Origin: Physcomitrium patens
Taxonomy: Eukaryota > Streptophyta > Bryopsida > Funariales > Funariaceae
Assembly: GCF_000002425.4 (NCBI RefSeq)
Contig: NC_037266.1
Coordinates: forward strand, 710,714 to 774,713
DNA: 64,000 nt
Direction of reading: 5' to 3'
Both the position numbers and the translations under genes were made by a program. How positions within the stretch are numbered: position 1 is the first letter of the stretch; each line of letters begins with the position of its first letter. Of the stretch, positions 3,161-60,970 are shown piece after piece. The notes under the pieces are model-generated. The model made no database searches and was not told where the DNA came from. It was given only the letters and a program-made list of their open reading frames with translations.

Positions 3161-5203
3161 ACGGTAGAAAAGTATATATTTTATACTATTTAAGTCAATT
3201 TCTTAAGATATATCATTTCAAATGATAGACTTATGATGGATCCTAAAAAAATTTAAACTATTATGGATTGGAAGATCCCATAAACGGTAAGAGATGTCCA
3301 ATGTTTTTTGGGATTTATTAACTATTATCGGATCTTTATCAAAGACTTCTCTCAAGTTGTGGCTCTACTTACACATTTGACTTATAAAAACAAACTTCAA
3401 TGGAATGAAGAAGCGAAAGTACCATTTGAAGCTTTGAAGACAACCTTTGTTTTTGCACCAATCTTGTATTGCATTGATTTTTCTAAACCATTTTTTATTA
3501 AAATAGAGGCATGAAACTTTGCTTTGGATGCTATAAGATCAACTATGAGATCTATAACAAAGAACTTCTTGCAATCATAGATTTATTTCAAAAATTATGC
3601 CATTATCTAAAAAGTGCTCCTAGCCCAGTCATCATATATATAGATCACAAGAACCATGAATATTTTATATCAACATGTGTTGTGAATCATCGCCAAGCTT
3701 GTTGGAATATGTCTTTGTGAAGATTTGAATTTAAGATCACTTATCGACTAGAAAAACAACAAGGTTTGTCAGATTCAATCTCTAGACAATCTTATCTTCT
3801 ACCAAAAGAAAGAGATGCTGCTTTTGATCAACAATAAACAATTCTCTTGAAGCTAGAGCATCTTCATCTTTGAATAATGAAATCAATACTAATTATTGAT
3901 TCAAATTTTATTAAGTAAGTTCAATCAAATATGTCTTTTGATTTTCTTAATTGTGATATTAAAGAAAATCCTTCAAAGTCTCATGATACTTTTAAGTTTG
4001 AATTCAAGAAAAATCTATTATATTTCAAGGAACGCCTATATGTTTGAGAAGGTGAAGCTCAATTACATATTTTTTAAGCTCGTCATGACTTTCCAATAGT
4101 ACGATATTTTGGATACAATAAAACTTTGGAATTAATATCTAGGGATTTTTAATGGCGTCAAATGTGAAAAGTAATTAAAGATTTTGTACAATCTTATGAT
4201 GTTTGCTCAAGATCAAAAACTCTTCATCATTGACATTATAGACTTTTTCAACCATTACCTATATCTAAGCAACCATGGTCTTTTATATTCTATGGATTTC
4301 ATCACGGATCTTCTAATCTCAGGTTCTTATAATTTTATATTCATGATAGTAGATTATTTTACTAAGATTGTATATTTTATACCATGTACAAAATCTATCA
4401 CAAGTGAAGAAATAGCTAAGGTCTTCCTTGGAAATATCTATTGCTATCATGGATTATCCAAAGATATTATATCAGATGAGAGAACTCAGTTTGTATCAAG
4501 ATTTTGGCGGACTCTTTTTAAGCTTCTAAAAGTGGATATAAAACTATCTTTGGCATTCCATCCTCAAACTAATAGACAAATGGAGTATATTAATTAAGTT
4601 TTAGAGCAATATTTAAGATGTATTATCAACTACTAATAAGATCTTTCGATAATTCTTTTGCCATTAATAGAATTTGCTTACAATACCATGGTACATTCTT
4701 CTACAAAACAAACACCTTGTTTTGCTAATTATGATTATCATCCATGACTTGATATTTTTGACTTTTCAAAAGTTAATAATCTTATGATAAAAGATTTAAT
4801 AATATATTTATCAGAGCTATATGCAATATTAAGACCACTCATCCTTGTGACAAGTTGGATTATCAAAGGCTTAGACCATTTTTTATTTCTATACAAATCA
4901 ATCCAATTTCATATCGTTTATATCTATCAGAATCAATGAAAATCCATTCAATATTTTATATGTCTCTTTTCAAACCTTATAAGACAGTGGATATATCAAG
5001 AAGAAGAAAAGTTCTACCTCCTTATATAGAAGTAGACAATAATGAAGAATTCAAAGTAGAAGAAGTTCTAAATTCAAGGCAACACCAAAATAAATTAGAA
5101 TATTTTGTCCATTATTGCAGATATGATATCAGTAAACATACATAGGAGCTAGTAGAGAATCTTACAAATGCAGCAAAGGCAATGGAGACTTTTTATTGGT
5201 AAC
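3161..5203 (+). pseudogene. Outer chromovirus pol fragment (RT end, RNase H, integrase, chromodomain)
   Basis: Remains of a Ty3/Gypsy polyprotein. At 3200-3300 the RT C-terminus reads MMDPKK followed by the GFINYYRIFIKDFS segment. RNase H coding covers about 3400-3800. The integrase core at 4284-4640 keeps MDFITD, then SDERT, then HPQTNRQMEYIN (DDE order retained). A chromodomain lies at about 5035-5190 (EEFKVEEVLNSR, then YFVHYCRYDIS, with TGG to TAG in the TWE motif). Chromodomains direct integration to marked chromatin. Many stops and frameshifts make it non-functional. The left side is cut by the RLG-A element ending at 3160, and the right side by RLG-B at 5204; it resumes at 14697. Confidence 0.85.
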
Positions 5204-5902
5204 TGTAGAATAAGTAGTTATTTGCTGAGTTGTAGATACTTAGTTTATAGTGTAAACAGGGATAAATGATTGTTGAAAAGGTAGTTCAGTAGGTAAAATG
5301 GATGAATAGTTAAGAAAAGCAGTTTTCATTAGAGTTGTAGCAGTTGTTATCTCGTGGTAGCATAAGGAGGATGGGAGAGAGGAAGTAGGGGCCAGACTGT
5401 GATAGTGTGAGCCGGGGTAAGCTTGGTGCTATATCTTTTCTTTTGTTTGTTATTTTCTTTGAATAAGAAGATTAAGAGTTTCTGAATATTGTGAAAGTGA
5501 ATTATAGAATGGAAGTATGATTGTTATTAAATGGAAAGAAGAAAGATTGAATGCTGAAATCTGATTGTAGTTCAGCAGAGAGAATGAGTCTGTGTTTGTG
5601 TGAAACATTGTAATGTGAAGGCAGTTGATGGTGAAGAACTCCAGAGTTTGGATTATAGTATGATTATGACCTGTCATTTAGGATAGTGCGGGATTACATG
5701 TTGTTGTTATCAGTGATGGTGGAGTATTATTAGGAAGTGGAAAGCATTGTAGTGTTTCTTGGGTGTTTTAAGTAGTGCAGAATACAGTTAATTGTGTGAC
5801 CCTAACGTGTAAGCTCATGCGGTATTCTTTCCCTGTGTTCGAATTCTCCTATACAGGTTTACTCTGATTAGATTAGTTAGAATAAGTAAAACGACAATCA
5901 CA
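5204..5902 (+). repeat. RLG-B 5' LTR
   Basis: Begins tgtagaataagtag and ends acgacaatcaca. It aligns end to end with 13998-14696 at the same 699-bp length. It is followed after three bases by the primer-binding site. Confidence 0.97.
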
Positions 5903-5905
5903 TTT

Positions 5906-5922
5906 TGGCACCGCTGTCGGGA
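5906..5922 (+). promoter_or_regulatory. RLG-B primer-binding site, tRNA-Asp type
   Basis: The sequence tggcaccgctgtcggga starts three bases after the LTR. It matches the complement of the plant tRNA-Asp 3' end (TGGCGCCGTTGCCGGGA type) except at three transition sites. Athila-like plant elements commonly prime from this tRNA. Confidence 0.75.
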
Positions 5923-6242
5923 AAATTGATAATAGCATGGAGTGTTAGGTATTAACTGCCGGTTGAAGTAGATGGAAAATAGGTAGCAGTCGCAGAAGAA
6001 TATAATGAAAGAGTATGGTTATTAAGAATGAGAACTTAACAGTAAAGAAAATACGACAGTCAAGAGAGAGAATAGAGAGATCGCAACCAAGAAATTTATT
6101 TCAAAACGAGCAACAAAGAAAGTTAAAAAGGAATCATAGACAAAGCTGGATTAGGCCATGGTTGCATGCTTGTCGTCATATTTGAGCATACCTAGAGGCT
6201 AATCGATATCTAATATTTCAAAAGTATATACCGTTAGAGAAA

Positions 6243-7974
6243 TTGCCAAAAGCACTTGCGGAAAATTTGGTCAATAGGCCAGGGTTTCTTCTGAGATCGT
6301 TAACTGAGAGTGGAGGAATCACAGAAGAGTTGGGTACTCCATTGGGTACGTTTTCAATTGCGGAAACTGCCGATTCCATCAAAACTGGTTCCATAGAGTG
6401 GCATAAATTATTGGTCAATAAGGGCCAATTCAGTGTGTTTCAAAATCCATCATTCTCACCTCCTATTCAACCGATAAACTTGTTCAAGGATAATAATAGT
6501 AAATTGAGCAGGGTAGAAAGTTTGGAAAATATATTTGGCAGAGACGCAGACTATATTAACAAATGATTAAGTGTCACGTTGTCAAATTCAATGAGGACGG
6601 GAGGTCCAGCGGTTCCCATAGCAGTACAAATGGGTACTGTGAGTGATCGCAGAACTAGCGTGGCTCCATTACCTATCTTTAGGGGCTTTCTGGGTGCGGA
6701 TCCAGATCAACATTTATCGCAGTTTTTGACAGCATGTGTCGCCAATAATGGGAGAACCAAGGATATTTGATTATGATGGTTGCCAGCAACCTTAAAAGAT
6801 ACAACGTTTGAATGGTATAATCGTCAATCACTTGGTCAATTTTTGAACTTGAAAGCATTGAAGAATGTATTTTTGACCCATTTTCGACCAATTGGTTTTG
6901 AAGACCGTCTTCGAGGAAGGTTAATGAACAGCAAAATAATCCTAGGAGAGGCGGTGGAATCGTACTATGGCCGAGTGGCTAATATACTTAGTAAATGGCC
7001 GAACCACCAAATGCCAGAGGTATTTATATTATCTATATTAATAAATGGTTTGTACCCACCATAGCTAAAAATGTTTGTCAAAGAAGCTCAACCAGTTACG
7101 GTATCTGCATCCCTTGATAGAGCCAAGGTTTGGGAGGAATGCCATTATGATCAGTTTTTAACTGCGAGTGCCACGATGATACCAGTTCAAAGCAATTATC
7201 AATATCCGGCTTTGAACGGATCAGTAGGTAGTTATCTACAGATGATCGAAACAGTGGCCTATTCAAGTGCCAATACTCAGGGACTAGTTAATGTTACCCC
7301 ATTGCAAGCTTTACCACCGCAAGTCACAACAGCGTATGCTCCATATTTTCCATATCAAACACAAGAGTCAACTTTGACAGAAAAACAAATAATACCAGCT
7401 TCAAAAGATTCCAATGAAGCCTTGTTATTGAACTTGACGAAGAAAATGGAAGAAATGGCCATTAATATGGCCAAAGATAAAGAGAAGAGGCAAAAGCCAA
7501 CTAATACGAGGACCAATGTATGGTGCAGTATTTGTCAGGGCCAAACCTAGTGGGTATATACCAGTGGAGACACCCAATATGCCTGATGGGGGTGCAAAAA
7601 GGCCATTGCGTTGTTTCCGTTGTAGACAGATTGGTCATTATGCCAATGAATGTCCCAATCCAAGAGCCAGTGACGATTATGCGCCAGTTTGTGGGAATTG
7701 CAAGCAGTCAGGGCATACGTATCAGCAATGTAATGCTCCATTCAATTTCAATAATCGAGATCAGCAGATCCAGAGTCCAGACAAAATAGAGGGGATAAAT
7801 CGAGGTCCTCAAGACTCTCTAGTAAATCGGGTGGAATGTGTCCATACCGTTCTTGCTAGGAGTCAGCAAAAAAAAAAGGCCCAATTAAACATTTGGAAGA
7901 TCCTAAAGCGAAGGGCCAATCACACCCAATTATGGATCCATCCCATTCAGGTCCTGACACTGGAAAAGTCCTGA
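6243..7974 (+). pseudogene. RLG-B gag with two CCHC zinc knuckles (broken)
   Basis: One frame from 6243 to about 7550 is interrupted by stops near 6566, 6770 and 7064. It contains a retrotransposon Gag core around 6660-7060 (residues like FEWYNRQSLGQFLNLKALK). Coding then shifts frame near 7520-7550. The new frame has two zinc knuckles, CFRCRQIGHYANEC and CGNCKQSGHTYQQC (about 7609-7731), which bind element RNA. Double knuckles are unusual beside the single one in RLG-A. The true start lies upstream; the leader from 5923 has other stops and I did not fix it. The frame closes at 7974, shortly before the protease region. Confidence 0.8.
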
Positions 7975-8078
7975 GCCTTGATTTGGTTGCAAAACCCAAT
8001 GAGGTCCCAATTACAAAGTTTTCAGTTCCATCTCGAACCGGTCTGTTCCCACCGTAGTTCCAAGAAGCATCATACTCG

Positions 8079-11000
8079 TTGAAAGATCCCCTTGGCAAAG
8101 GTAGTCCCAAGGAAGGTCAAGCTGCTATTCCAATTCTAAGGCCAGGGTGGCAGAATAATTTACCTCACGGAGTTAAACTCAAACCCATGAAACGGAAGAG
8201 GGCATTAAAAATTACCCTAAATATGGAACCCTACGATATTTTAAAGGATTTGGATGCTATTCGGCCTTCAATTTCTATGAAGCAACTTCTAGCAGTCGCA
8301 CCAGAGTGTCGTTCCACCTTGAATTCATCCCTAACAAGACATCGGCATCGTAATATGGAAGTTTGTGAAGTTAGTTTGAACCCTGATCCAGGTGCACCAA
8401 CCATTGATGTTTCGATTGATGGTCTTCTGATCTCTGGTGTCCAGGTAGATGGAGGTTCCAGCGTCAATTTAATGAACGCAGATACAATGGATGCTTTAGA
8501 TCTCGAACAATTAGTCCCCACGATATTGGTATTACGGATGGCAGATCATAGCCGAGTTAAGCCAATGGGTATTTTACGGAGAGTTCAAACTATAATTGCA
8601 GGTATTGCATATGAAATTGACTACATTATCTTTCGCTTACAACGTTCGACTTTATCGTATCCTATTTTATTGGGACGACCTTGGCTGTATCAAACAAAGG
8701 TCAAGAACGATTGGGGTCGGGGTACTTTGACAATTGGTAAGGGCATAGATAAAATGGTGTTACAAATGTACCCAGTACGCTATCACGGGGAGTCTCAGTT
8801 GCCAGCATCTGAATTGACGTCGGACGAAGAGCTTAGTTCCGAGGATGACACAGAAGTACCGAGTATGGAGGCCAATGTGGAGGCAGCACTACACCCTGGA
8901 ATGGTGTACCAATGTGGAGGTCCGGGGGAGTACTTGATATACTCGAAGGATTCGAAAAACTCTGCTTATGTTAATATTGACTGAAAACCTCCGCACGATG
9001 TGCACCATGTTAGTGCCCTCGAGACGGGATTCGTTACTTCGCATATGTTGGACATACCGAGTAATTTTAAATCATTGCGGGAATTGAAACAGAGTATTGT
9101 TGCTGAACCTGTATGTCAAACTATTAACTTAGCAACCACGGCCGAACCTCGGCTAATTAAGGTCTACGAAGGTATTAAGGAATAAGAGTTGACCTATTGG
9201 ACAGACTTTTTCTTATATTATAAATCCGCTTTTGCTTGGACTTATGATGATCTACAAGGTATCCCCGCTGATGTTTGTGAACATCGTATCATATTGGAAG
9301 AAAATGCTAAACCGGTACGCCAGAGGCAACATCGCCTTAATCTTAAATATTTCCTTATGGTGAAGGAAGAATTGGACAAGCTTCTTGCGATGGATTTCAT
9401 TTACCCGATACCGAATAGTGAGTGGATTTCTCCAATTGTGATGGTGCCGAAAAAGAATGGAAAAATCCGAATTTGTCAAGATTTTTGGAAACTCAATGCA
9501 GCCACCAAGAAAGATTACTTTCCGTTACCATTCATGGATAGTATATTGGACGCCGTCACCGGTCACGAATGCTATTCGTTTCTTGATGGTTTCTCCGAGT
9601 ATAATCAAGTTCAAATTACAAAAGAAGACCAGCTCAAGACAACCTTTACTACGGATTAGGGCACATTTGCTTATCGCGTGATGCCTTTTGGGTTATGTAA
9701 CACCCCAGCCACGTTCCAATGCGTGATGACTCAAGCTTTTCAAGACTATTTTTGGATATTTATGGAGATCTTTTTAGATGACTTTTGTACATTCAATACC
9801 AAACAAGATCATCTTTATTGTTTAGGCAAATGTTTGGCTCAGTGTGTCAAATTTGGGATATCGTTGAATTCGAAGAAGTACCAATTTGGTATTCCGTCCG
9901 GAAAATTATTGGGCCATATTGTTTCCAGTCGTGGTATTGCTACGGATCCTGACAAAGTGTAGCATATCATGAACTTGCCCAGATCGGAGACAGTCTCCAG
10001 TGTTCGAGGGTTCATTGGTCATGTCAGTTATTATCGACGATTTATAAGTTCGTTTGCGATTATTTATCAACCTTTAACGAACTTACTGAAGAAACCTCCG
10101 TCCGATGGTACTAGTCCCCTCTGGACCAAGGAGTGTACCGTAGCCTTCGAGGTCTTAAAGTCAAAATTGATCTCTGCACCAATATTGATGGCTCCTTGTT
10201 GGACAAAGCCATTTCATGTGTATGTTGATGCATCCAATGCTGCTATTGGCTTGGTGTTAAGCCAGAAGGATGATAAGGGATTAGATCATCCCATATATTA
10301 TGCTAGTCGATAATTGGTGGCTGCCAAACGCAACTATACTACTACTGAACGAGAGGCGTTGGGTATGATATACTCGATTCAAAAATTTTGGCACTATTTG
10401 CTTGGATATCCATTTGTATTTTATGTGGATCATGATGCTCTCAAATATCTGATTAATAAGCCTCAATTGAGTGGGTGCATTGTTCGCTGGGTCTTACTCT
10501 TTTAGGAGTTCAATTTTATGGTGGTTGTCAGACTTGGGAAGCAACATACGAACGCGGATCATTTATCCCGGTTGTCTAATATTCTCAGCAACGAGCTTGT
10601 TTCCGATGATCTTCTCGATGCGCATTATTTGTGGTGGATGTGATATCCCCCAAGTATAGCAAAATTATTCAGTTTCTGACCTTCCATACTTTTCCGCCGA
10701 CTTTCACGGACAAGCTTAAGAAGTGCCTTATTCTGAAGAGTGCCCTATACATGATGATTCATGATGCTTTGTATAAACAAGGCCGAGATGGTCTTTTACG
10801 GCGTTGTATCTTTCCCAATGAAGTACAGTCGATACTTACCGGTTGTCATTTGGATAGTTGTGGTGGTCATTTCGCGGGAGACAGCACTGCTCGCAAGGCT
10901 TTAATGGCCGGATATTGGTGGCCCACAATGTTTTTTGATGCCCACTAATTCGTTTGCCGTTGTGATCCTTGTCAACGAATTGGTCGACCTACGGGTACTT

Positions 11001-11903
11001 CCGCCATGCCGTTAGTCCCAATCTTAGCCTAGGTCCCGTTTGAAAAATGGAGTATTGATTTTGTTGGTCCCATTACACCTGCGTCAAAACTTGGTCAAAA
11101 GTGGTATATCTTAGTCGCCACAGATTATGTCACCAAATGGGTAGAGGCGATTGCTACCCACATCGATAATGCCAGTACGGTGGCAACTTTTTCTGTATGA
11201 GAATATTATCACTCGCTTTGGGTGTCCCAAAGAATTGGTCAGCGATCGAGGCACCCATTTCATCAATGCTACCATCGCCGCCTTGACGACCACATATGAG
11301 ATCAAGCATCGTAAGACCACTCCCTATCATCCTCTCACCAATGGGCAAACAGGAAAGACCAATGGCATTTTGTGCAAAGTCTTGACTAAGACAATTTCAG
11401 GGGCCGGTACTGATTGGGAGACCAAACTCTTTGGAGCTTTGTGGGCTTATCGTACCGCCTATAAAGCAACTACCCACTCTACTCCGTTCCAATTAGTTTA
11501 CGGTCAAGAGGCAACTTTACCTATCGAATTGGAGGTTCCCAGTTTACGTATTGTCTTAGACGAACGCCTCAGTGACATCGAGTCATTACACTCTCGGTTG
11601 ATGAAATTGGAGGAATTGGATGAAATACGGGCTGTCGCTCTATTCCACATGGAAGCCACTCAAAAATGGAGGAAGAGTTACTATGATAGTAAACTGTGGC
11701 CAAAGTATTTTATGTCCAATGATTTGATATTGCTGTATGACAGCCGATTCAATTATTTTCTGGGAAAATTTCAAGTTCGCTGGCATGGACCATATCGCGT
11801 AATTGAAGGATTTTTCAATGGGTCTGTTCAATTGGAGGATTTCACGGGCCATCGTTTCAGTACCCGCATTAATGGGAATCATTTGCGGTTATATAATACC
11901 TAA
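8079..11903 (+). pseudogene. RLG-B pol: protease, RT, RNase H, integrase (broken)
   Basis: Polyprotein of the Gypsy order. The aspartic protease is at about 8400-8720, with VQVDGGSSVNLM as active-site loop. RT covers 9189-9960: KKNGKIRICQDF, CYSFLDGFSEYNQVQI, MPFGLCNTPATFQ and the catalytic FLDDF near 9773-9790. RNase H is at about 10190-10600 (VYVDASNAAIGLVLS, later NADHLSRLSN). The integrase zinc domain is at about 10850-10990 (CRCDPCQRIG) and its core at 11040-11400 with IDFVGPI and SDRGTHF. The expected catalytic Glu in the third motif reads NGQTGKTNG, with Gly instead. Stops occur near 8984, 9185, 9659, 9961, 10313, 10505 and 10948, and there is a frameshift near 11150-11200. No chromodomain follows. 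Confidence 0.92.
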
Positions 11904-12365
11904 AACTCGGGACAGGTTTTATTTCATTTGAGGGGAGGAGACTTCGAATGGACTCAGGAGGGACCTAATTATGGTATAAGGCGTAGAGGCGGCTGCAAGG
12001 ATATTTAGTAATCACTATTGTGTCAGATGCGAAGGAAGTGAGAAATGGACAGTATGGATATCATGTTGTCGTTCTCATCACTAGGTAATAGAATAGGAGT
12101 GGGGCTCCTATTAAGGATTATTCTGTGGTGTTATATTCTGTTGTTGCTTATTTATGTTTTATTTTAGTGTTTCGGGCATACTGGAGAGTCGCATTGACAG
12201 TTAGGACCTGTAAGCGTTTGAGTCATGGCGATTGAAAGTACCAAGAGAGCTGTAGACAGAGATGAAAGTGGCCGAAATGTGAGAGCTAAACGCACAACAA
12301 AACCACCGTCTATGATAATCGTTACCAATATGGAGTCGATGAAGTTAGAAATCTGTTGGACGTAG

Positions 12366-13919
12366 AGAAAAATAAGGGATTTTTGGACTACGAAGCTGTT
12401 CCAGTTTTTGCACCATTCAGAGTGTTTACCATCAATCAATGTGTCATTAGTGGAGGAATACATTAAGAATTATGACCCCGAGGATGGATCGAGTGTCGTT
12501 CAAGGGCAAATTATTGGGATTGATGAAACAATCATGGAAAAGGTGTTGTTTCTTCCCATTGGAGAGATGGCAGTAGGGACTGATGAGTCAAGCGATTTCA
12601 GCCCAGGTAGATATTTCAAGGGAAGAATGTCATCTTTTGAAAGGAGCCAAGGATGGCGGACTCAGGAGGCCATTACACCAAAATATGTGGAATGGTTGCG
12701 GTTCGTGCTGAGGCGGTTAGGATTGTATCGACACCCCACTTATGTATCAAAACGATTATTGTATGTAGTAGTAGGAGCGTTTGAAGGGATGGTGTTCAAC
12801 TGGGCGGCTTACGTAGCTACTCGTATTCATGCGGAGATAGGAGCCAAGTTCAAATTGAAAAAGTTCACATCCTTGCTTTGTTCAAATTATGTGTATGCTG
12901 TCATCGTGCACACATTGCGTCAACCACCGTTAAAAGAGAAAAACCCTATACCAGTGTCAGCACCTTTGGAGAGAGAACAAAATTTGTTGGCACAGAATCA
13001 CAATACAGCAGATATAATACACGAAATTGGAGAATCAAGTCGTACATTGATTCAAGGGGCAGTTCCGGTTATCGAAGCGAGACGGGTTCCAAGTGGTGTT
13101 GTGGTGGAAGAGGAGAATCAAGTTCCATTATTGATAGATATCAACCAGTTGGCGTTTCCAGAAGGTCGATTATCTGAAAGAATATTTCTTAAAAATACCG
13201 TATTGAAGCACATTTTGCAAATACATTGTATGGTACGAGCATTGGATGTAGAAGACAGAAGTAAACGGGATTGGGAGGACAATAAAAAAAAGATATCGGA
13301 TCAAAAACAAAAAATTAGGGAGCAAGAACTAAGGATTCAAGAAATTGAAGAAGCCAAATTGGTCCTGGAGCGGAAATTGGTTCTCCAATATGAGGCTTGG
13401 ACAAAGGAAAAAGAACAAATTTCATGGATTGTGGAAGGACAACGGGACGAATTGATTCAGAATAGGAAGTCATGAGATTTGGAATGGGAGAATTTCAAAT
13501 GCCAGTTGCAAGTGGAAGTGGACAAGACAGAGTTATTGGAGACAGAGAAAGCGTTATTGTGTGACCAATTGAGATGTGAAACGGGGAAAATGAGGTCTAA
13601 AATTAAAATTTTACAAAATGAGGTGTCAAAACTGACGGAAGAGTTAACTGTGAGGAGCCAATCTCAAGTGTCGATTGAAGATGTCCCAGAAGGGATGAGT
13701 CCACAGCAACATCAGTTGGAACTTCGCGATGTCCAGATCTTGAAACTGGAAGCTCAGGTCTGAGAATTGGAAGAATACAATGAAGATCTTTCAGCCTAGT
13801 TGAAAAAGGAGTCACTTGAAATATTGGAAGAGGATGAAGATGTACCACTAGAGCCAGAATTGGTGGAACCAATAACGGATAATGAAGTAATTGATCAATT
13901 CGGTGTATCAGATAAATAG
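12366..13919 (+). pseudogene. RLG-B extra 3' ORF, globular N-terminus plus coiled coil
   Basis: One reading frame between pol and the 3' LTR, open from 12366 to 13919 except for TGA 13473, TGA 13761 and one TAG near 13798. Joined, it would give about 500 residues. The first 170 residues look globular (segment SLVEEYIKNYDPEDG, later a pattern like EKVLFLPIGE), loosely recalling putative plant-transposon proteins carried by some Gypsy elements. From about 13250 it becomes strongly charged and heptad-like (DWEDNKKKISDQKQKIREQE), that is, coiled coil, ending acidic. I see no signal peptide or transmembrane anchor, so it is not obviously envelope-like. Function unknown. Confidence 0.7.
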
Positions 13920-36300: not shown

Positions 36301-39300
36301 ATGGCTTGAAATGAGGGTGAAGATTTGAGAGTGATTGAAAAGTTTAGAGGTGACAATTTCTACCATTGGAAGGTCAAAATGAAACTTTTGTTGGTATCTT
36401 GGACCTTTGGAATATTGTAGATGAAAGTGAAGAGCTTCCAAGCATGCATGCTAATACTAAAGAGAGGAAGGACTTTACAAAATGTGAAAAGAAGGCTTTT
36501 GACATGATTACCACCAATTTGAATGAAGCCAATTTTTCTCACATCATTTCTTGTAAAAGACGAAAGAAACATGGAAGAATCTTTACAACATATATGAGAG
36601 CAAGAATTTATCCAATATCATCTTCACAAGGAAGAAATTCTTCACTTGCAAGATGGAAGAAGGTGAAGACTTTATGGCTCATGTCAACAAGGTAAAGATC
36701 CTTACTAATCAACTTGAAATTATTGACAAACCTTTAGAAGAGAGTGATATTGTCATGACCTTGCTTATAAGCCTTCCCAAGTCCTACAACTATTTTATTT
36801 TAGCATTGGAGTCCATCAAACTAAAAGAATTTATAATGAATAATGTGATAGCAAGACTTACCTATGAAGTGACCAAGAAAAAAGAAAAAGAATCCTAATA
36901 TGAAGATTTAGCTCTCTTTTCAAGACAAGGCAAGAAAAATCATCCTAACCAATGTGGCAATGTAAAAATTTGCTTCATTTGTAAAAAAATAGGTCACTTT
37001 GCTTGAAATTGCTATAAGGCTAAGAAAAGAGATAGAGAAAGTGCAAACAATGCTTGTGATGAATATGGAGGTGATGATTATGCATTCATGGCAAGTAAAG
37101 GTACTTCCATGGCTGCCATGTCCAAGTGGATCATTGAGTCTAGTGCTACCAAGCACATGACTCCATACAAGTGTTCATTTGATACTTATGAAGAGATTTG
37201 AACAGCAAATATCCTCATGGAAGACAATGGCATAGTACAAGCTATTGAAATAGGCTCCATTGTTACAGGCATTGTTGTGAAAGGCAAAACCAAGAGAATT
37301 AGATTGAAGGATGTCTTACATGTGCCAAAGATAAAAAAAATCCTCATCTTGGTGAATAAACTTATTTTATATGGTTGTAAAGTGTAATTTCATAAGAATG
37401 GATGTTTTGTAAAAATGTTAGAGGGAGATCATATTACAAAGGGCTTTAGAGATGGCAACCTCTACTTCATGAAGTGTAAGAAGGTAAATAGAATTGAAGT
37501 GGCAGCATTTGTTGAATTTCCTCAAAATCAAGATAAGTTTGGTATTTGGTATTGACACCTTGGTCATTTGAATGCCAAGAGCATGAAGGAGCTCCAATCA
37601 ATGGTAAGTTGTTTAAATATTAGTCATATAAGCCACAATGCTATGACACTTACTTATGAAGGTTGTATTCAAGGCAAACAACAAAGGACCTTATTTCCAA
37701 GTGGAGTTACAACACATGCGACCAAGTTACTAGAGATTGTCTATTCTAATGTTTGTGGATCTATAAAGATGCCATCAATAGGAGGTGCAAGGTATTTTAT
37801 CACATTTATTGATGAATTTTTAAGGTGTGGATTTTCATCCTCAAAGCAAAGAGTGAGCGTTTTACATGGTTTAAGGAGTTTAAGGCACTTGTGGAGAAGC
37901 AATGTGAATGTAAAATCAAGGTATTACATACGGACAATGGAGGTGAGTATATGTCAAAGAAATTCAATGGTTTCTTAAAGTTACATGATATTGTAAGATA
38001 AACCTCCACTCTTTATACTCCCCAATAAAATGGAATTGCTGAAAGAGCAAATCAGACTATTGGGGAGATGGTAAAGAGTATGCTTTATACACAACATCTT
38101 GGACATGAGTTTTGGACGGAAGCAGTGGTGAATGTAGTGTACACAAGAAATAGGTGTCTTATAAGTGTACTTACATCAATGATGCTGGAAGAAGTTTAAA
38201 GTAGAAGAAAACCTTGTATTTCTTATATAAAGATCTTTGAATGCATAGTATATGCAAAAATACCAAATTTTATGAGATCGAAATTTGATGCAAAAGGTAC
38301 AAAATGTGTATTTTTTGGATATTGTGAAGATACAAAGGCTTATAGGCTCATGTATTTGGAGATCAAAAAGATCATCAAAAGTCGTGATGTTGAATTTTTG
38401 GAGCACAAGAGTGCTTGTGAGTACTTGGAGATGTGTCGAAAAGGAAGTAATGGTGTATTTATAGACATATCCTCAAATTCAGCAAAGAAAGAAGAAGACA
38501 AAGACAATGATGGTTGTAAAGGTAGAAATGAAGATGAATAAACAAAGAAGGTAGATAAAAAGGCCTCTACAATTGCTAAGACCATCAATGAAGACCATGA
38601 AGATTTTGATGATGATGGTGATGAGTAATATGAACCTTTGAATGAAAAAAGACTATCTTCAAAAAAAAAGAATATTGGAGGTGACCATGGAGTGCAACAA
38701 GTTGAATCTTCTTCAAATAAAAGGAGATATCCTTTGAAATATAGAAAACAACATGGTGAATGGTGGAAGGACCACATGTTTTCTCAAGTAAATAAAGAAC
38801 ATGCCAATGTTGTACTTTCTTGCTGATCCATTGAGTTTATGTGATGCAATGAAGTCCACGGATGCTATGAAGTGAGAGAATGCTACAAAAGAAGTGTATA
38901 AATCATTAATGGACAATGAAATAAAGAAATTGACTCAATTTCCACCAAATCAAGCTTCAATTGATTGTACGTAGATATTTAGAACAAAGAGGGATGGAAT
39001 GGATAATGTTGTGAGGTATAAGGCAAGATTCATTGCCAAAGGCTACTCACAAGTTACTGGTGTTGATTTCAATGAGACATTTGCTGCCATGGCCAAATTC
39101 ACTACCATTAGAACCATTGTAGCAATTGGGATAGCAATGGATTTGGAGATGCACCAAATGGATGTGAAGATGGCTTTTTTGAATGGAAAATTGGAATAAG
39201 ACATCTACATGGATCAACCTCAAGGATTTGTTGAAGAAAGCAAACAACACATTGTGTATAAGTTGAAGAAATATTTATATGGGCTCAAGCAATCTTCAAG

Positions 39301-51364: not shown

Positions 51365-53613
51365 TTAATTATTAATCAATTTTAAAATATATATTTTTAA
51401 AAATTGATTGACTATTTCTTTTGATGATGATGTCAAGCTTGAGCACCCTCCTATATCAAAGGTAGTCAAAGATGTGAGGTTGCCCAACTCATTTGGCAAT
51501 GATGTCAAGTTTGAGCAATCACTTATATCAAAGGTAGTCAAAGATGTGAGGTTGCCCAATTCATTTGGCAATGATCTCAAGCTTGAGCATTTACTTATAT
51601 TCAAGGTAGTCAAAGATGTGAGGTTGCCCAATTCATTTGGCAATGATGTCAAGCTTGAGCACCCTCCTATATCAAAGGTAGTCAAAGATGTGAGGTTACC
51701 CAATTCATTTGGCAATGATGTCAAGCTTGAGCACCACCTGATATCAAACATAGTCAAAGATGTGAGGTTGCCCAATTCATTTGGCAATGATGTCAAGCTT
51801 GAGCAATTACTTATATTCAAGATAGTCAAAGATGTGACGTTGCCCAATTCATTTGGCAATGATATCAAGCTTGAGTAATTACTTATATTCAAGATAGTCA
51901 AAGATGTGAGGTTGCCCAATTCATTTGGCAATGATGTCAAGCTTGAGCAATCACTTATATTCAATGTAGTCAAAGATGTGAGGTTGCCCAATTCATTTGG
52001 CAATGATGTCAAGTTTGAGCACCTTCTTATATTCAAGGAAGTCAAAGATATGAGGTTGCCCAATTCATTTGGCAATGATGTCAAGCTTGAGCACCAACTG
52101 ATACCAAAGGTAGTCAAAGATGTGAGGTTGCCCAATTCATTTGGCAATGATATCAAGCTTGAGCAATTACTTATATTCAAGGTAGTCAAAGATGTGAGGT
52201 TGTCCAATTCATTTGACAATAATGTATAATTTTCTATCCTTAAATTAGTCAAAGATGTAATATTATTTAATTCATTTGACATTGATGTCAAATGGTTGCA
52301 ATTACTTATATTCAAAGTTGTCAAAGATGTACAATTGCCGAATTCATTTGACAATGATGTCAAGCTTGAATATTTGTTTGTTCTTAAGGTAGTCAAATTT
52401 GTGAGATCGTATAATTCTTTTGGTAATGATTTCAAGCTTTTGTAATCATTTATATTAACAATAGTCAAAGATGTGGGATTTTCTAATTTATTTGGCAATG
52501 TTGTCAAGCTTGAACATTCTCTTGTATCAAAGGTAGTCAAAGATGTGAGGTTACCCAATTCATTTGGCAATGATGTCAAGCTTGAGCACCTTCTTATATT
52601 CAAGGTAGTCAAAGATATGAGGTTGCCCAACTCATTTGGCAATGATGTCAAGTTTGAGCAATCACTTATATCAAAGGTAGTCAAAGATGTGAGGTTGCCC
52701 AATTCATTTGGCAATGATCTCAAGCTTGAGCATTTACTTATATTCAAGGTAGTCAAAGATGTGAGGTTGCCCAATTCATTTGGCAATGATGTCAAGCTTG
52801 AGCACCCTCCTATATCAAACGTAGTCAAAGATGTGAGGTTGCCCAATTCATTTGGCAATGATGTCAAGCTTGAGCACCAATTGATATCGAAGGTAGTCAA
52901 AGATGTGAGGTTGCCCAATTCATTTGGCAATGATGTCAAAAGCTTGAGCACCCTCCTATATCAAAGGTAGTCAAAGATGTGAGGTTGCCCAATTCATTTG
53001 GCAATGATGTCAAGCTTGAGCAATCACTTATATTCAAGGTAGTCAAAGATGTGAGGTTGCCCAATTCATTTGGCAATGATGTCAAGCTTGAGCACCCTTC
53101 TACATTAAGGTTTTTCAAAGCATGAAGACTTCTTATTGATGTTGGTAATAACCTTAAACTTCTATAATATTTTAAATTAAGTATCTTCAAAGAAGTCGTA
53201 TACTCTATTTCATTTGGTAGCATGATTAAGTTTGAGCATCCTTCTAAGTCAAGTTCCAATAATGTAGAAATTTTAAAAAATGAATTTGGAAATTTCTCTA
53301 CAAAAGAATAATTTCTTAATTGAAAGACATTTAAACTTTCAAGTTTAGTTCAAATCTCTTTGTCATATGTAATTTGTAATGCTTGATGTACTAATTCTTC
53401 ATTTAATTCGTATTCCCCTGACATATCTAGTAAAAAATATTTTAAACTAAGAGAATACTTTATCAATACAAAGAAAATGCTCAATATCTTTACAACAATT
53501 TTGGAAGTAGAAACACCAACATTATAACTCAAAAATCGAAGTGATGAAAAAGAAGCACTTCTTATTTTATTTATATTATTATTTTTTATATTATTGTAAA
53601 ATAATCCTTCTAA
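51365..53613 (-). pseudogene. Exon 3: linker and leucine-rich repeats (two lesions)
   Basis: Opens with LEGLFYNNIKNNN and a linker, broken by TGA 53352-53350, after which the same frame resumes with ESLNVFQLRNYSF. LRRs begin near 53270 (LDLEGCSNLIMLPNE). A two-base insertion at about 52937-52941 (caaaagctt where other units have caagctt) shifts the frame. The remaining array is open from 52951 to the TAA at 51365. The C-terminal tail is short (about 25 residues) and shows no transmembrane helix. LRRs usually sense or hold the receptor inactive. Confidence 0.85.
51408..53105 (-). repeat. 72-bp tandem array encoding 24-residue LRRs
   Basis: About 23 units of the form SLTSLPNELGNLTSLTT plus seven variable residues. 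Most differ at only a few DNA positions. Four to five central units (about 52230-52480) are diverged, with one shortened. The block of units with FDIGGCS, LNISKCS, SLRS and FDISDCS occurs twice, near both ends, pointing to multi-unit duplication. Confidence 0.95.
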
Positions 53614-53872
53614 CTGTAAATCAACACAATCAAATATATATTTAAATTAGAATTTCTACATAAGTAATGCACTCAATGTATATACAAATCTAATTACAAT
53701 ACAAGATTGATTTTTCTTATATTACAACTTTATATCAACATATATCTCAAAAACACAATAAACATTATATAATACATATAACTAAATAAAAAATTTAACC
53801 TTTACATAATATTTCTTACATATTATCATTAGTTTTTTACATGCCATTTAGTTAATAGTTAAGTAAAATTAC
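53614..53872 (-). other. Intron 2 of the kinase-NBS-LRR gene
   Basis: 259 bp with donor gtaatt and acceptor gttgatttacag. Phase 0. It separates the end of NB-ARC from the linker to the LRR. Confidence 0.75.
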
Positions 53873-54943
53873 CTTGTTTGCTGATCTATGAAATGGATCT
53901 ACATTTAAATTCCATATTCTTGTGTATTTATACTCCATCTTCTTTTCAACAATACTTTTACCCATGTCTTGTAGTTGATCATGAACTCTTATAATTCCAT
54001 CTTTGTCTACTTTAACCAATGATTGGTTAATCAATGTATCTAACATAAGTTCTACATCTTGTTCAAAGATGTTTTTTTGACTATTGGTCCATATTCGCAA
54101 TGCTCTTTCTTTTGACATGCCTTGTGGACACATGTCACTACAAAAAAAACAACATATGTCCAAAAACATATTCTTTTCTTTAACTTTCAAATTCTCAAAG
54201 CTCACTCTTAATATCTTCCAAATCTTGTAGTTACTATTGTCTTCATCTCCATCCAACTCTCTTCCCTTTTTTAACTTTTGTAAAGCTCGCTCCCAACATC
54301 TTAATCTCTTATTCTCTTTTAAAAATGCTCCCATAACTTTCAAACTCAATGGTAGGCCATTGCAAGCTCTTACAATTTTTTTGGCAATCTCGTTAAGTTC
54401 ATTGGGGAGATTTTCTTGGCCACAAGAATATGTAATAAACAACTTCATACTTGCTCCTTCATCAAGTTCTTCAACATTCATTTTATAAACTTCTTTACCA
54501 CAATGCTTCATTGCTTTTGAATCTCGAGTTGTTGCAATCAATGTACTACCATTGTTAGCAAATATGTCATCCATAGGCACAACATCTTCAATTTGATTTT
54601 GATTCTTCACATCATCAAAGACCAAGATAGTTTTGTTCTCTTCTAAGAATGATTTCAACATTTTTTGAGCTTCTTTTATATCCTTTGGTTTTGATTTGAC
54701 TTTAAATTGTTCCAAAATATTGCAAGAAGTTGTATAGCAATCACCACCACTTTCAATGCACTCAACAAAGCATGAGGCATTATACATGTCTTTTACACTA
54801 GTTAATATAGCCTTAGCTATTGTGGTCTTGCCTATTCCGCCCATTCCAACAAGATACAATGCCTTCACTTCATTTGCACATAGTTGTTTTATTTGTAATA
54901 AATATTGTGCTCTACCAACAATTTCTTCCTCAAATATATCAAC
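53873..54943 (-). CDS. Exon 2: NB-ARC domain
   Basis: 357 codons, fully open and in phase 0 at both ends. Motifs in order: P-loop GMGGIGKTT (54847-54821), kinase-2 KTILVFDDVKN, RNBS-B TLIATTRDS, GLPL as CNGLPLSLKVMG, RNBS-D FLDICCFFCSD, and an MHD equivalent reading RVHDQLQDMG (Met is Val). The kinase-2 end (DDV, then Lys-Asn rather than Trp) and FLDICCFF are of the TIR-NBS type, not the coiled-coil type. NB-ARC is the ATP/ADP switch controlling receptor activation. It ends at the donor acaag/gtaatt. Confidence 0.92.
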
Positions 54944-55143
54944 CTGAAATTAAAAAATTCATACAAAAATCAATAATAAAATCAAAATGAAGCATATACT
55001 ACATATCAGCCTAGTCTTACTAACTTGAGTTTGTAGTAAGATATGTAAACATTATTATGGCATAGAAGACTGTACAAGTTTAAAATACTATCAATATAAT
55101 CAATTCTATACATAATCTCTATAATTATTTGTACAAGTCTTAC
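54944..55143 (-). other. Intron 1 of the kinase-NBS-LRR gene
   Basis: 200 bp, donor gtaaga and acceptor tttaatttcag, very T-rich. Phase 0, joining GLPL to VDIFEEEIVGR. Confidence 0.8.
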
Positions 55144-56802
55144 CAATGGCAATCCAATATGTATTTGTTGAAATTCTATATTTTGATGATAGTTGTTTTT
55201 TGATGCTCCAAACTTTGGAGCATCTGCTACACCAATTCCAGCTAAATACTTTTTCTTTAATAACTCCAATCTTTCACAAATATTTGCAAACTTTGGTCGA
55301 TGCAAAGAATTCAACCTCCAACATTCTTGGATAAGCTCAATCAAGTCATCACAATTTGAAGGTAAGTTTGGTCTTTCACCTTTTTTAATTCATTCTAATA
55401 TCTCTTTCATCTCACAAATATCATGAAATGGATCTTTTTTTGAAAGAATCTTAGAACATATCATTGCAAATGAATAAACATCAACTTCAAAATGACATAT
55501 TTCTATTTTTTGAAATTTATTTCTCAATACCTCTGGAGCCATATATTTGAGACTACCATAAATATAATTATTCTTTGTGGCTTTTGGATTTCTTCCAACT
55601 TCAATCTTGGACATTCCAAAGTCAATCACTTTTACAATAGCATGTCGAACAATCTTATTCATAATCTTCGTCTCCACAATGTCAACCAAAATATTCTCAG
55701 GTTTTAGATCTCGATGTGCAATATGCATGTCATGTAAGTAACACATCCCTTTTGCAATTTGATGCATAATGTCAATAAGAAAAATATAAGATACTTCTTT
55801 TTCTTCTTCCAACATATTGCTCAAATTGTTTTGCATCAACTCCATTCCAATATACAAATATTCTTTTTTGTCTTTTGTTACAATAGACTCAATGCTTCCA
55901 TTGGCACTACCTTTCATTGCAAAATAATATGTTATCAAGTTAGGATGGCTCAAACTTCCTAGAATGCTCACTTCTTTGATGAAAATTTTATCAAGTTTAA
56001 CATCCATCTTTTTAGTTGCACACACAAGTTCCAACCACTTTGATTCATAAACTTCACCACAATTTCCTTTATTTATGCATTTTGTAATTGTAAGACTCTT
56101 CATGTCTGACAAAAATTTCAAATTATCCAACTCTCCACCTTCTATGCAAAGCAAGTCTTCAAATCTTTGTAATAGATGCTTTGCTAATCCATAATATTCA
56201 AAATCTTCTTTTCCAATTTCATGAATCAATTTCTTCCATAAAAACTCAACATCCTCTTCCACTTCATCATGTGTTGCAACATTAAAAGTTGCAAAAGTAT
56301 TCTTTTCAACTTTGTTGGGATAATGGTTCAAAACATCACTTGCTATATCACAACAACATTTTAAATCCAAAAGTAGTTCTCTAAAAGTGTCTTTGTTATT
56401 TAATTGGAAGATAGCTTCTTTGCACCAATTTTCTTTTCCACAATTTTCTACTAGAAAATAAGATTTATTTAAAACAAAAAATAACTCACTCAATAAAGGT
56501 CCAAATTCCAATCCATCATTAGTGCAAGTCATTAGGTGGTCAAAAACCATCGTAACATGTTCAATTTTCTTAAACAAATTAGCACATTGATTTCTGTTCA
56601 ACAAGTTATTTTTCTTCAATAAAACCTTGAATGCTTCAACATAGACTTTAGAACCTTTCCAAGTATCTCCACAAATACCTTCCATATTTAAATTTTTTTC
56701 ATATTGTTCCATTGTTCTTGAAGATCTTTGCATGAAAAGACCATGGAAATAGCTCCAAACCATGAATATATATCGCTTCAATGATTCCAAAAGATATTCC
56801 AT
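55144..56802 (-). CDS. Exon 1: helical N-terminal domain and protein kinase
   Basis: ATG at 56802. Residues 1-230 are mostly helical with no known catalytic motif and resemble the four-helix N-terminal region of MLKL-like plant kinases (inference). The kinase starts near residue 238: loop NKGNCGEV (first Gly is Asn), lysine in CATKKM (K264), helix-C Glu in FIKEVSIL (E277), catalytic IAHRDLKPEN (D365), DFG (394-396), YMAPEVL (about 420). All catalytic residues are present, so the ancestral domain was probably active. Residue 470 is followed by TGA 55392-55390. The frame then continues with the kinase end (LIQECWRLNSLHRPKF) to the splice donor ccattg/gtaaga at 55144/55143. Confidence 0.85.
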
Positions 56803-57117: not shown

Positions 57118-59158
57118 ATGTCTAGAGATCGCAGTTCCTGCTCCTTGATTACATCAAAAGAGGTTTTCAGTATCCACTCAAACATGGAGAAGCACCACCA
57201 TGTTCTCAGACATGAAGGTACTCATGCGTGTGATTGTGAGTTTAGTACACGCTACTTCCTATTCGAGACAGGAACAAAAGACCTGAAACCATCAATCGAA
57301 CCATCAGAAGCTACACAACTCATAACAACTCAGAATTTACTCATGATAGATACTTCACTTAACGCCGGTGTCCGAATTTCTAATCTAAGTAGCAAAGTTC
57401 CTGGTAAGCTGATTTGTAAGGGCAATAAGTCCTAAAATGAAAACAGATAGGGACAGAATTATAAACTGAGATCAAAGCTTTGTATGCTGTAGAGAGATGG
57501 CAATTTTTTAGGTGGCGCCACTCGAAGCCTCCCAGAACTAGGAGAAACTCTCATTTCATGCCCAACATTTTGAGTTGTGTATCAGCACTCGGACAAACAC
57601 ATACCTCAGTATACCTCAAGCACAGAAAGAAGAAATGCAAAGAAAAGATCACACTTCAGACGTCAGAAAACGGATGTGAATAAATTGAGGCACACTACCA
57701 ATCTCCTCACAAGCTTAACGTTTTATATATAATGTCACACTTCAATGAGCTCCGAAAGAAACCCCCCCAATTATGGCGCTTCTAGGAAAGAGAATAAGCA
57801 ACATAACTAGTGGGTCGCTAGCCTCTAAGCCTTGTACAATTCGTTCCTTCATCGCCAAAATGTAAGCGAGCTTTTTCCACGATTTAACATATCAGCAAAA
57901 TCTGCTTTAATGACTACATTTGGTTGCCACATATATGCGAAAAGTGCGGCCACGCGACCGGGGAAATCAAGACATTTCCACAGAATTCATGCAGACGCGA
58001 ATTCAAATGACTAGGACAAGAAGAAAAGCATAAACAGCTGCCTTTACTGTAAACACGCCGAACCAAAGCCTGCAAAACTTGCACGGTCGAACTCACCAGA
58101 GAAGGGGTTGATAAACCAGCCACTCGCCAAAACAATTCCCTCTTTTCACAGAGCCTTCAATTCCGATTCGATTCTTCCTTCCCTTGGTGTCACTAACAGA
58201 CAAGAGCTCTAATGTTGTCAACGGAAACACCAACCAAAAATAAATTGAGGGTCTCTGGTGATCTTCTCTTGAACCTTCTGATTATCCCCAGGAGACCTGC
58301 GCACTGCTGAGAACACCGTGAACTCTACGTCCAACCCAACAGAGACCCTATTCCGACACACCAATCCTGCAACCCTGAGTTCTAAATCTCTGATCCCTAG
58401 CTACTTCCTGAGACAGAACGGTAAAAAAAATCCACTCAACAGAACTGCTGGCGCCGCGACATCCCTCATAGGATCTCAAGGCCAGAATCTGTCCCGACAC
58501 TCTACGTGTCCGCCTCTCCGTAGACCCGATTGCATCATCTCCATCCCCTTCCCATGCCACTATTTCACCTTCGCCACAAAATCCGGCCGAAAAACCTAAT
58601 CGCTCAAGAGAATGCAACCCACAAGCACCTGTTCTCTCCCACTCGCGTTCACACTCCAACAACAGCCAACTTGTCTCCACACAATATCATGCCTCAAGGC
58701 ATCTCCACCGATTGCCTTAATACCCACTTGATGAGTTTTCCCTGCGAGGGGCTCTTTTCACAAATTTGGGCGCCTTCGGCCTAATTACCCCACCGTTGCC
58801 CACGCCATGCAAGAAGTCCGGATTTCGAGGAAGCTCATGCTTCGTCCACAAAGCACCACCTGCCACTCTACAAGCCGCTACACACGCTGCCTACCCTGCA
58901 AGTACATTGGCAAGGCGGGAGAGACTCCCCCTCGTCATTACGTGTCTCAGAAACCTCACAACTCTATCGCCATCGTGGGCCGTCGGATCGCTGCTACCGC
59001 TCAGATGCAATCTCAACCGCTGATCGGATTTCTAGGAAGGGAGGGGGGAACATTGGGGAACCAGGGGAGGGGGGGCAGTTGGAGGGCGGCAGGTTGGGAA
59101 CTCAAAAGCCATTCCTCATTGGGCCAATTCACATAAATGTGTGTTGCTTGTTGTTTAG
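57118..59158. other. GC-richer, ORF-poor island between two host-like genes
   Basis: Clearly richer in G+C and CpG than the rest of the window, especially 58.2-59.1 kb. Several unrelated short frames exist on both strands; none shows a recognisable domain or continues by splicing that I can support. The most economical reading is promoter and untranslated leader sequence of the flanking genes, perhaps bidirectional. The plus-strand end ttgcttgttgtttag/ggg at 59158 looks like a splice acceptor leading into the next feature. Confidence 0.45.
59039..59075 (+). other. G-rich tract, potential G-quadruplex
   Basis: At least four runs of three or more G separated by loops of one to six bases, in an otherwise mixed context about 85 bp before the next exon. 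Confidence 0.6.
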
Positions 59159-59650
59159 GGGTTGCTTCACAACATATCAGTCAGTTTCGAGGGTCTTCGC
59201 AGAACGGCAAAATCTGTCGTTTACCTAGCTTCCTCAGAAAACAGTGGTGAGGAATTCCCTCCGCGAATCTATGCTCGCCAGTGTGCGATTCTTGCAAAGA
59301 AAGCCTCGGAAACTTTGCTTGTCGTTGACGAGTTTGAGAGCATCATCCGCCAGCAAGAGCGTCTCTTGGGAGGATCCGAACGAAGCAGCACTACTCCTTA
59401 TTGGAATGTAGCAGCCACAGAGCTTCGCCATGTGCTGAAAGCTGCGGAGTCTCTAACGAGAAATTGCTGCTCTAAAGTAACTACACGTATTTCTGACACT
59501 AAAAGAATTATGTTTCTTATTGCCAGAGCAGCTAAAAGAATTATTGTCTGCAATTACAAAGAGAAGCTAATGCAATTGAGCATGCACTATTAGTTTGCAA
59601 TTCCCTTCCAAGAGGTGGAGTAGATGAGGTAATTCTCCTAGGCCTAGATA
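59159..59650 (+). pseudogene. Broken exon for a kinase-type helical N-terminal domain
   Basis: Begins after a splice-acceptor-like tttag. The open frame encodes RQCAILAKK, VVDEFE, ATELRHVLKAAESLTRNC. These line up with NQCANLFKK, VFDHL, LSELFFVLNKSYFLVENC in the N-terminus of the gene at 56802; the Cys-to-Asp spacing is 15 residues in both. Frameshifts near 59514 and 59560 are needed to continue into LPEQLKELLSAITKR and HALLVCNSLPRGGVDEV, which correspond to the next helices of the neighbour. Codon use is GC-richer than in the neighbour. No kinase domain follows, so it is a truncated relative. Confidence 0.6.
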
Positions 59651-59919
59651 AAATCTTTTGAATAAAAAGTTAAATAAATGAATTTAAAAAAAATTGAAAT
59701 ACATCTTTCTTCTTTAAAAACCTTGCATACAAAACAACCCACTCTTTTTGCTATTATTGAGGTATTCACTTTTCAAACCAAATCAATATAGTTTTTATAA
59801 TACTCGCAAAAAAAAAAGGAATTTTTACCTCAATCTATAGACTTATCCCTCATTCATAAGAATATCACTATAAGAAATTAATAGTTGATATAACAAAACA
59901 TATTTGAATGTTGTTGTAT
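59651..59919. other. AT-rich spacer
   Basis: No coding or repeat signature recognised. Confidence 0.5.
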
Positions 59920-60970
59920 TATAATTGCTTATAGTATGTAAAAATTAATTAAGACAATAATATGTTCATAAGTCTTGGTGTATGCTAAAATGGTTAATAG
60001 ATTAATTTAAAGAGAGTGGATATAAAAAATTTTAATTTAAATTTTATCTAGTTTGATTATAGCATTTAAAAAAATTATAGGACCTAAATGTTTAATATGA
60101 AGCCTTGATAGGAGATTAAAGCCTAAAGAAAAAAATCTTATCTAATAGGAGGCTTATTGGGAGGGATGAAAGCAAGGAATAGAAATCTTCATTCCTATTG
60201 GTCAAAGGCCATGCCCAATGGGCTTCAAGGAGGCTGCCCGAGGCCCTATTAGGGATTAGAGTTTTTTTATTGAAGTAATTTGAGCTTTGGAGACTATGGT
60301 CATCAAATTTAGGTTTTTTGAGTATAGATTGGATGTAAATTTTGTATGATTTGGAGTTTTTATGGAGGAGTTATTGACTCTCAAATTTAAGGTGTCAATT
60401 TCATACCTACTATCACTCTTTGAGGCATAACATATGTTTACAAAGAGCAATGAAGGATCGGCAATTGAGGTTGGAGAGAGCTTTTCTTGGACTACATTCT
60501 TCATATATTGTTTGATGAATTTAAAATTCAAATAAAGAAGTTATAAAGAGTTAAAATCAACACATCCAAATCAAAGGCAGTAATTAAGTGATTTTATTAA
60601 TAGTAATGATTGGAGCCATATTTTGAGTTTTTAGACAAATTTTTGGCTCAAACTTTTTGGAAAAGCTAGATTATTGTGTCAAAAAGATATACATAAAAAT
60701 TTTGTGGCATTTGAGTCCTTATTTTGTAAGATATGAAGAAAATTGCATGCAGATGTACAAAAATTAGGATTTGAAGCAGTTGTAAGGATTTTGGTGATAT
60801 CTTAAGCTCTGTAATAAATTTGTAGTTGAAATTTGTTATGGTAGTTTTTAAAAGTACATCAATACTTCATGTAAAGTTTGAATGTGTTTGAACAGTCCGA
60901 TTAGAAGATATGAATTTTTGAAGTTTGAAAAAAATATCCCATAAGGATATTTAAGGATTTAAAAGTTTTA
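59920..60970 (-). repeat. RLG-A LTR copy, reverse orientation
   Basis: Reverse complement matches about 1780-2690 of the left-edge RLG-A element in order, including the cgggcagcctcc segment (at about 60226-60243) and aattgacacctta (about 60390). The (TA)n present in the other copy at 2509 is missing here. No gag or pol adjoins, so it may be a solo LTR; ends and target duplication were not resolved. Confidence 0.7.

Follow-up and report, generated by a model that had tools for sequence, protein, structure and literature searches.

In this work, we examine a receptor gene carried on the minus strand (56802-51365) of a stretch of 64,000 nucleotides of Physcomitrium patens DNA, hereafter the window. 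The gene encodes a kinase, an NB-ARC domain and a leucine-rich repeat (LRR) domain in three exons, and its frame is interrupted at three places, by two in-frame TGA codons and by an insertion of 2 bases. On balance, we consider that the locus is probably a recently disabled copy of the moss PNL class (also called Pkn-NLR), whose intact protein would begin with an MLKL/HeLo-like four-helix bundle and a pair of brace helices, continue with a kinase that looks catalytic and a TNL-type NB-ARC, and end in an LRR sensor. A damaged copy from this known class is not in itself new; what we propose as new is the MLKL-like reading of its head, a conserved helical module ahead of the kinase that the first-pass annotation of the window had missed.

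The helical head and its predicted resemblance to MLKL

The approximately 235 residues that precede the kinase are predicted to fold into a four-helix bundle followed by two brace helices. When the best solved structures were re-aligned to this head, six of the top seven were MLKL from plants, human and mouse, 4btf among them. The best Foldseek match of the exon 1 model was AtMLKL3, and one single AtMLKL3 alignment spans the bundle, the brace and the kinase, which begins at offset 229 in both proteins. The arrangement that characterizes MLKL, a four-helix bundle and brace ahead of a kinase-like domain, is thus found here in the predicted fold. The pseudokinase nature of AtMLKL and animal MLKL is not, since the catalytic residues are present. 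The module is also not restricted to the window copy. Ten of the 15 relatives have bundle and brace (at least 150 of 181 residues) and share 36-132 identical residues with the window protein, and the other five (P0005, P0009, P0011, P0012 and P0013) are gene models with a later start; both elements were found again in P0123 and P0125 when the divergent P0015 served as query. The helical module is therefore a feature of the sampled PNL class. We make no claim for a membrane-anchoring first helix (residues 2-37): the highest hydrophobic moment lies at the helix start in P0001, P0002 and P0004 (0.36-0.44) and at residues 23-40 in the window protein, and the pLDDT of this block is 31-48.

A close comparison is with the plant MLKLs AtMLKL2 and AtMLKL3, in which bundle, brace and kinase follow each other in the order and with the spacing predicted here, whereas the window gene continues into NB-ARC and LRR and has no match to the plant HeLo profile PF06760. 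AtMLKLs are described as pseudokinases (PMC10951266), in contrast to the window kinase with its Lys, HRD Asp and DFG Asp. In this respect the gene is nearer, by description, to wheat Pm13, the nearest precedent for the mechanism proposed below, an MLKL that combines bundle and brace with a kinase whose catalytic residues are conserved. Mutations in any of these three parts of Pm13, a kinase stop among them, accompany the loss of resistance (PMC10951266); Pm13, however, has neither NB-ARC nor LRR. The available text of the PNL class papers makes no mention of a helical module ahead of the kinase. In that of Chia 2024 (PMC11218826), the kinase heads form one structural cluster and MLKL is used only as an annotation label. 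Our literature searches, whose coverage took in few subscription journals, found no paper linking moss kinase-NLRs to MLKL.

If this resemblance reflects function, a mechanism can be proposed, each step of which we infer. The LRR would hold the receptor in an off state; upon ligand sensing, the NB-ARC would exchange its nucleotide and form a ring, in which the clustered kinases could phosphorylate one another; the brace would then release the bundle, which would attack membranes and lead to cell death. The solved AtMLKL2 and AtMLKL3 are tetramers according to their entry titles, and Roq1 forms a tetramer as well; therefore, one ring could serve both halves of the protein. Moss Pkn-NLRs may then be, and we put this forward tentatively, single-chain necroptosis receptors in which an NLR sensor is mounted on a complete MLKL-type executioner with an active-looking kinase. 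With the same reserve, the receptor, the activating kinase and the killer, which are separate proteins elsewhere, could be united in one polypeptide in the moss.

Class membership, gene structure and breaks

Its sequence assigns the gene to the PNL (Pkn-NLR) class of Physcomitrium patens. Read through its breaks, it has the N-terminal kinase, central NB-ARC and C-terminal LRR of the class, and a phase-0 intron separates kinase and NBS, as Xue 2012 reports for PNLs. A search with residues 1-910 matched 235 proteins; among the best 120 of these, ranks 1-14 are all P. patens proteins (the best, P0001, about 75% identical), rank 15 is a JGI protein, and the others are mainly plant NLRs, many of the TIR type, and kinases. 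Identity to any matched protein is at most 78%, this maximum being reached by P0122 over 65% of the head. The NB-ARC falls on the TNL side, and its nearest solved chain is Roq1. What sets the window copy apart from the class is that its open frame is broken. Xue 2012 named the class and counted 45 P. patens members, incomplete ones included, of which 6 carry all three domains. The suggestion that this domain order is mostly a moss trait stands only in part: the matches and Xue 2012 place the gene in a moss class, yet kinases ahead of an NLR also occur in monocots, wheat Tsn1 among them (PMC10952240). In the NB-ARC tree, kinase-NLRs of monocots belong to the CC/RPW8 part, whereas most bryophyte ones lie near the TIR-NLRs (PMC11218826).

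The gene structure was borne out as first annotated, by the open frames, the Pfam matches and the lengths of the repeat units (Table 1). Stop-to-stop frames on the minus strand run over 56808-55390, 55389-55006, 54949-53852, 53646-53350, 53349-52936 and 52960-51365, and along them Pfam finds the kinase (E 2.2e-35), the NB-ARC (6.7e-34), WHD_ROQ1 (3.3e-10) and the LRRs, in this order. The two introns proved as clean as had been described, and so did the motifs: the kinase keeps Lys264, Glu277, HRD Asp365, DFG Asp394 and APE, the NB-ARC keeps P-loop, Walker B, RNBS-B and a VHD of the MHD type, with GLPL read from the alignment with relatives, and all agree with those of the relatives. In other P. 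patens copies, the HRD catalytic Asp is replaced by Gly (P0006 and P0122) and the DFG is altered too (P0122), which is a sign of kinase decay. Just upstream of the start codon (56850-56829), the DNA that follows a TATAG resembles, by eye, the code for the N-terminal extension of P0001; a 5' leader and its splice acceptor may lie here.

Table 1. Features of the PNL locus, with positions in the window
Feature	Position	Strand	Basis
Exon 1: helical head and kinase	55144..56802	-	splice site, frame, Pfam, alignment
Intron 1: 200 bases, GT-AG, phase 0, separates kinase from NB-ARC	54944..55143	-	class feature
Exon 2: NB-ARC with ROQ1-type winged helix	53873..54943	-	Pfam, splice sites
Intron 2: 259 bases, GT-AG, phase 0	53614..53872	-	
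Exon 3: linker and LRR domain	51365..53613	-	frames, Pfam, splice site
Predicted four-helix bundle, MLKL/HeLo-like, residues 41-159	56326..56682	-	models, fold matches, conservation in 10/15 relatives
Two predicted brace helices, residues 178-221 (H178-196, H204-221)	56140..56271	-	models
Protein kinase domain, broken by first TGA	55267..56091	-	Pfam PF00069 and PF07714, motifs
LRR array, 72-base units, ~23 copies	51427..53094	-	
First in-frame TGA; relatives mostly Arg or Lys	55390..55392	-	alignment
Second in-frame TGA; close relatives Trp	53350..53352	-	alignment
2-base insertion in T run and the stop that it creates	52936..52941	-	repeat-unit lengths

The alignment with P. patens proteins stays in frame through both stops, far beyond chance. 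The first stop falls inside the kinase: ahead of it, PF00069 is matched up to profile position 200 of 263, and after it PF07714 is matched at positions 217-258 (E 0.00019), so that approximately the last 63 of the 263 kinase profile positions are lost. It had been expected that an intact gene would read TGG at both stops. This did not hold for the first one, where the exon 1 alignment (15 relatives, leaving out the isoform-like P0003, P0007 and P0008, and P0014, which lacks the exon 1 part) gives a letter in 14 relatives, namely Arg in 8, Lys in 3, Tyr in 2, Ser in 1 and Trp in none. At the second stop, Trp is found in P0001, P0002 and P0005 and Leu in P0010, the remaining rows being gapped or poorly aligned. 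As to the insertion, one unit of the 72-base array measures 74 bases and the frame ends at TGA 52938-52936, while the units downstream are all of 72 or 63 bases, the last one of 66. The longest product that the locus can encode thus has 470 residues, a kinase that is cut short and no sensor part, and because of this the copy is most likely non-functional.

Within the LRR array, two blocks of five units (52933-52574 and 51790-51431) are identical at 348 of 360 bases, a mark of recent copying inside the array. The ratio of nonsynonymous to synonymous differences (pN/pS) among 21 of the 24 units, leaving out the insertion unit, the 63-base unit and the last one, is 0.89, with pN peaks at codons 19, 18 and 16; since the units are copied within the array, this ratio cannot be used to prove selection. 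The antisense open frames across the array were set aside as a by-product of the 72-base repeat.

Age of the breaks and rival explanations

The young pseudogene that the first-pass annotation had considered is favoured by the substitution counts, the neutral estimate and the repeat-unit lengths taken together. Two stops across 4,968 bases correspond, under neutrality, to 33, 41 or 55 substitutions (kappa 1, 2 or 4), that is, to 0.7-1.1% of change (~0.8%, range 0.1-3%), with 95% limits of 0.08-4.0% across all three kappa values. In 766 columns from six proteins, the window copy has 14 changes at the 275 columns that are invariant in the other five, to be compared with 18/279 for P0001, 5/266 for P0002, 3/264 for P0004 (the close sister relationship of P0002 and P0004 reduces the counts of both), 36/297 for P0006 and 96/357 for P0010. 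Relative-rate tests of the window copy and P0001 with four outgroups gave chi-square values of 0.87, 2.49, 1.44 and 0.05. A second set of 585 columns shows more unique changes in the window copy (43/403, as against 3-17 of 363-377), the other four proteins there being two close pairs, which also makes the window copy the longest branch.

The evidence for an MLKL-like head comes from predicted folds. Foldseek with just the bundle as query was uninformative, and no sequence profile matches the head, PF06760 (DUF1221, plant HeLo) having no match in the window head, P0001, P0002, P0006, P0010, P0015 or P0121 in a search in which the HMMER filters discard weak matches. The head could instead be a generic four-helix bundle of the CC or Cbl-N type, with no MLKL ancestry and no part in membrane killing, and PNLs would be kinase-NLRs that signal by phosphorylation. 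We regard this as unlikely, though by no means negligible, given that six of the seven top structures are MLKL from both plants and animals, that a single AtMLKL3 alignment covers bundle, brace and kinase, and that both proteins have their kinase begin at offset 229.

The two other alternatives concern the breaks rather than the head. That they are sequence or assembly errors in an intact gene would fit an insertion that extends a T run within a repeat array, a typical error site, as well as the preservation of the catalytic and NB-ARC motifs and the absence of a substitution excess in the 766-column set; it is nonetheless improbable, since it would need two independent nonsense changes and one indel in a single gene, and since broken or partial PNLs are usual in P. 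patens (6/45 complete, Xue 2012). Slightly less probable still is that the locus is expressed as a 470-residue protein of bundle, brace and partial kinase, acting as a truncated executioner or as a decoy. Bundle and brace are indeed predicted to be complete ahead of the first stop, short P. patens gene models of the head exist (P0121, 274 aa; P0122, 418 aa), and the N-terminal domain of animal MLKL is by itself enough for killing (PMC11476962). On the other hand, the kinase breaks off at position 200 of its 263-position profile, the HRD and DFG motifs of P0122 are altered, and the first stop lies 246 bases ahead of the exon junction. A stop placed that far upstream is expected to trigger decay of the message. 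The product would also be unlikely to work in view of the Pm13 precedent, in which a kinase stop is accompanied by resistance loss (PMC10951266). The cut kinase, the place of the stop ahead of the junction and the Pm13 precedent also make the working kinase-only protein that had been envisaged unlikely, and we retain the recently disabled PNL copy as the preferred reading.

Surroundings and significance

Ten other open frames of the window were scanned. Domains of mobile elements turned up in six of them at E 0.001 or better, namely integrase (in two), reverse transcriptase, zinc knuckle, Transposase_32 and gag-pre-integrase; of these matches, the zinc knuckle alone clears the cut-off set by Pfam. 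Decayed retrotransposon pieces with integrase, reverse transcriptase, zinc knuckle and gag-pre-integrase lie at 4175-13475 and 37556-37978, most of them under Pfam cut-offs. The segment 58282-59593 is GC-rich (0.446 across 58001-60000) and holds several overlapping open frames, four of which were tested and gave no Pfam match. A search of the window with eight relatives found no further PNL piece outside the locus, and a tRNA scan and an Rfam scan at the gathering threshold were empty.

A broken gene is ordinary for a class in which 6 of 45 members are complete (Xue 2012), and the point of interest is rather the head of the class. In a review, plant MLKLs are surmised to act together with helper NLRs in TNL immunity, each as a protein of its own (PMC9950082). 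The head of a P. patens kinase-NLR gave a modest and variable response in Nicotiana, with constructs that extended to the NB-ARC (PMC11218826) and may, for that reason, have included the bundle. If the MLKL-like reading is true, sensor and executioner would be physically fused in moss kinase-NLRs, and how kinase-NLRs execute cell death would become directly testable.
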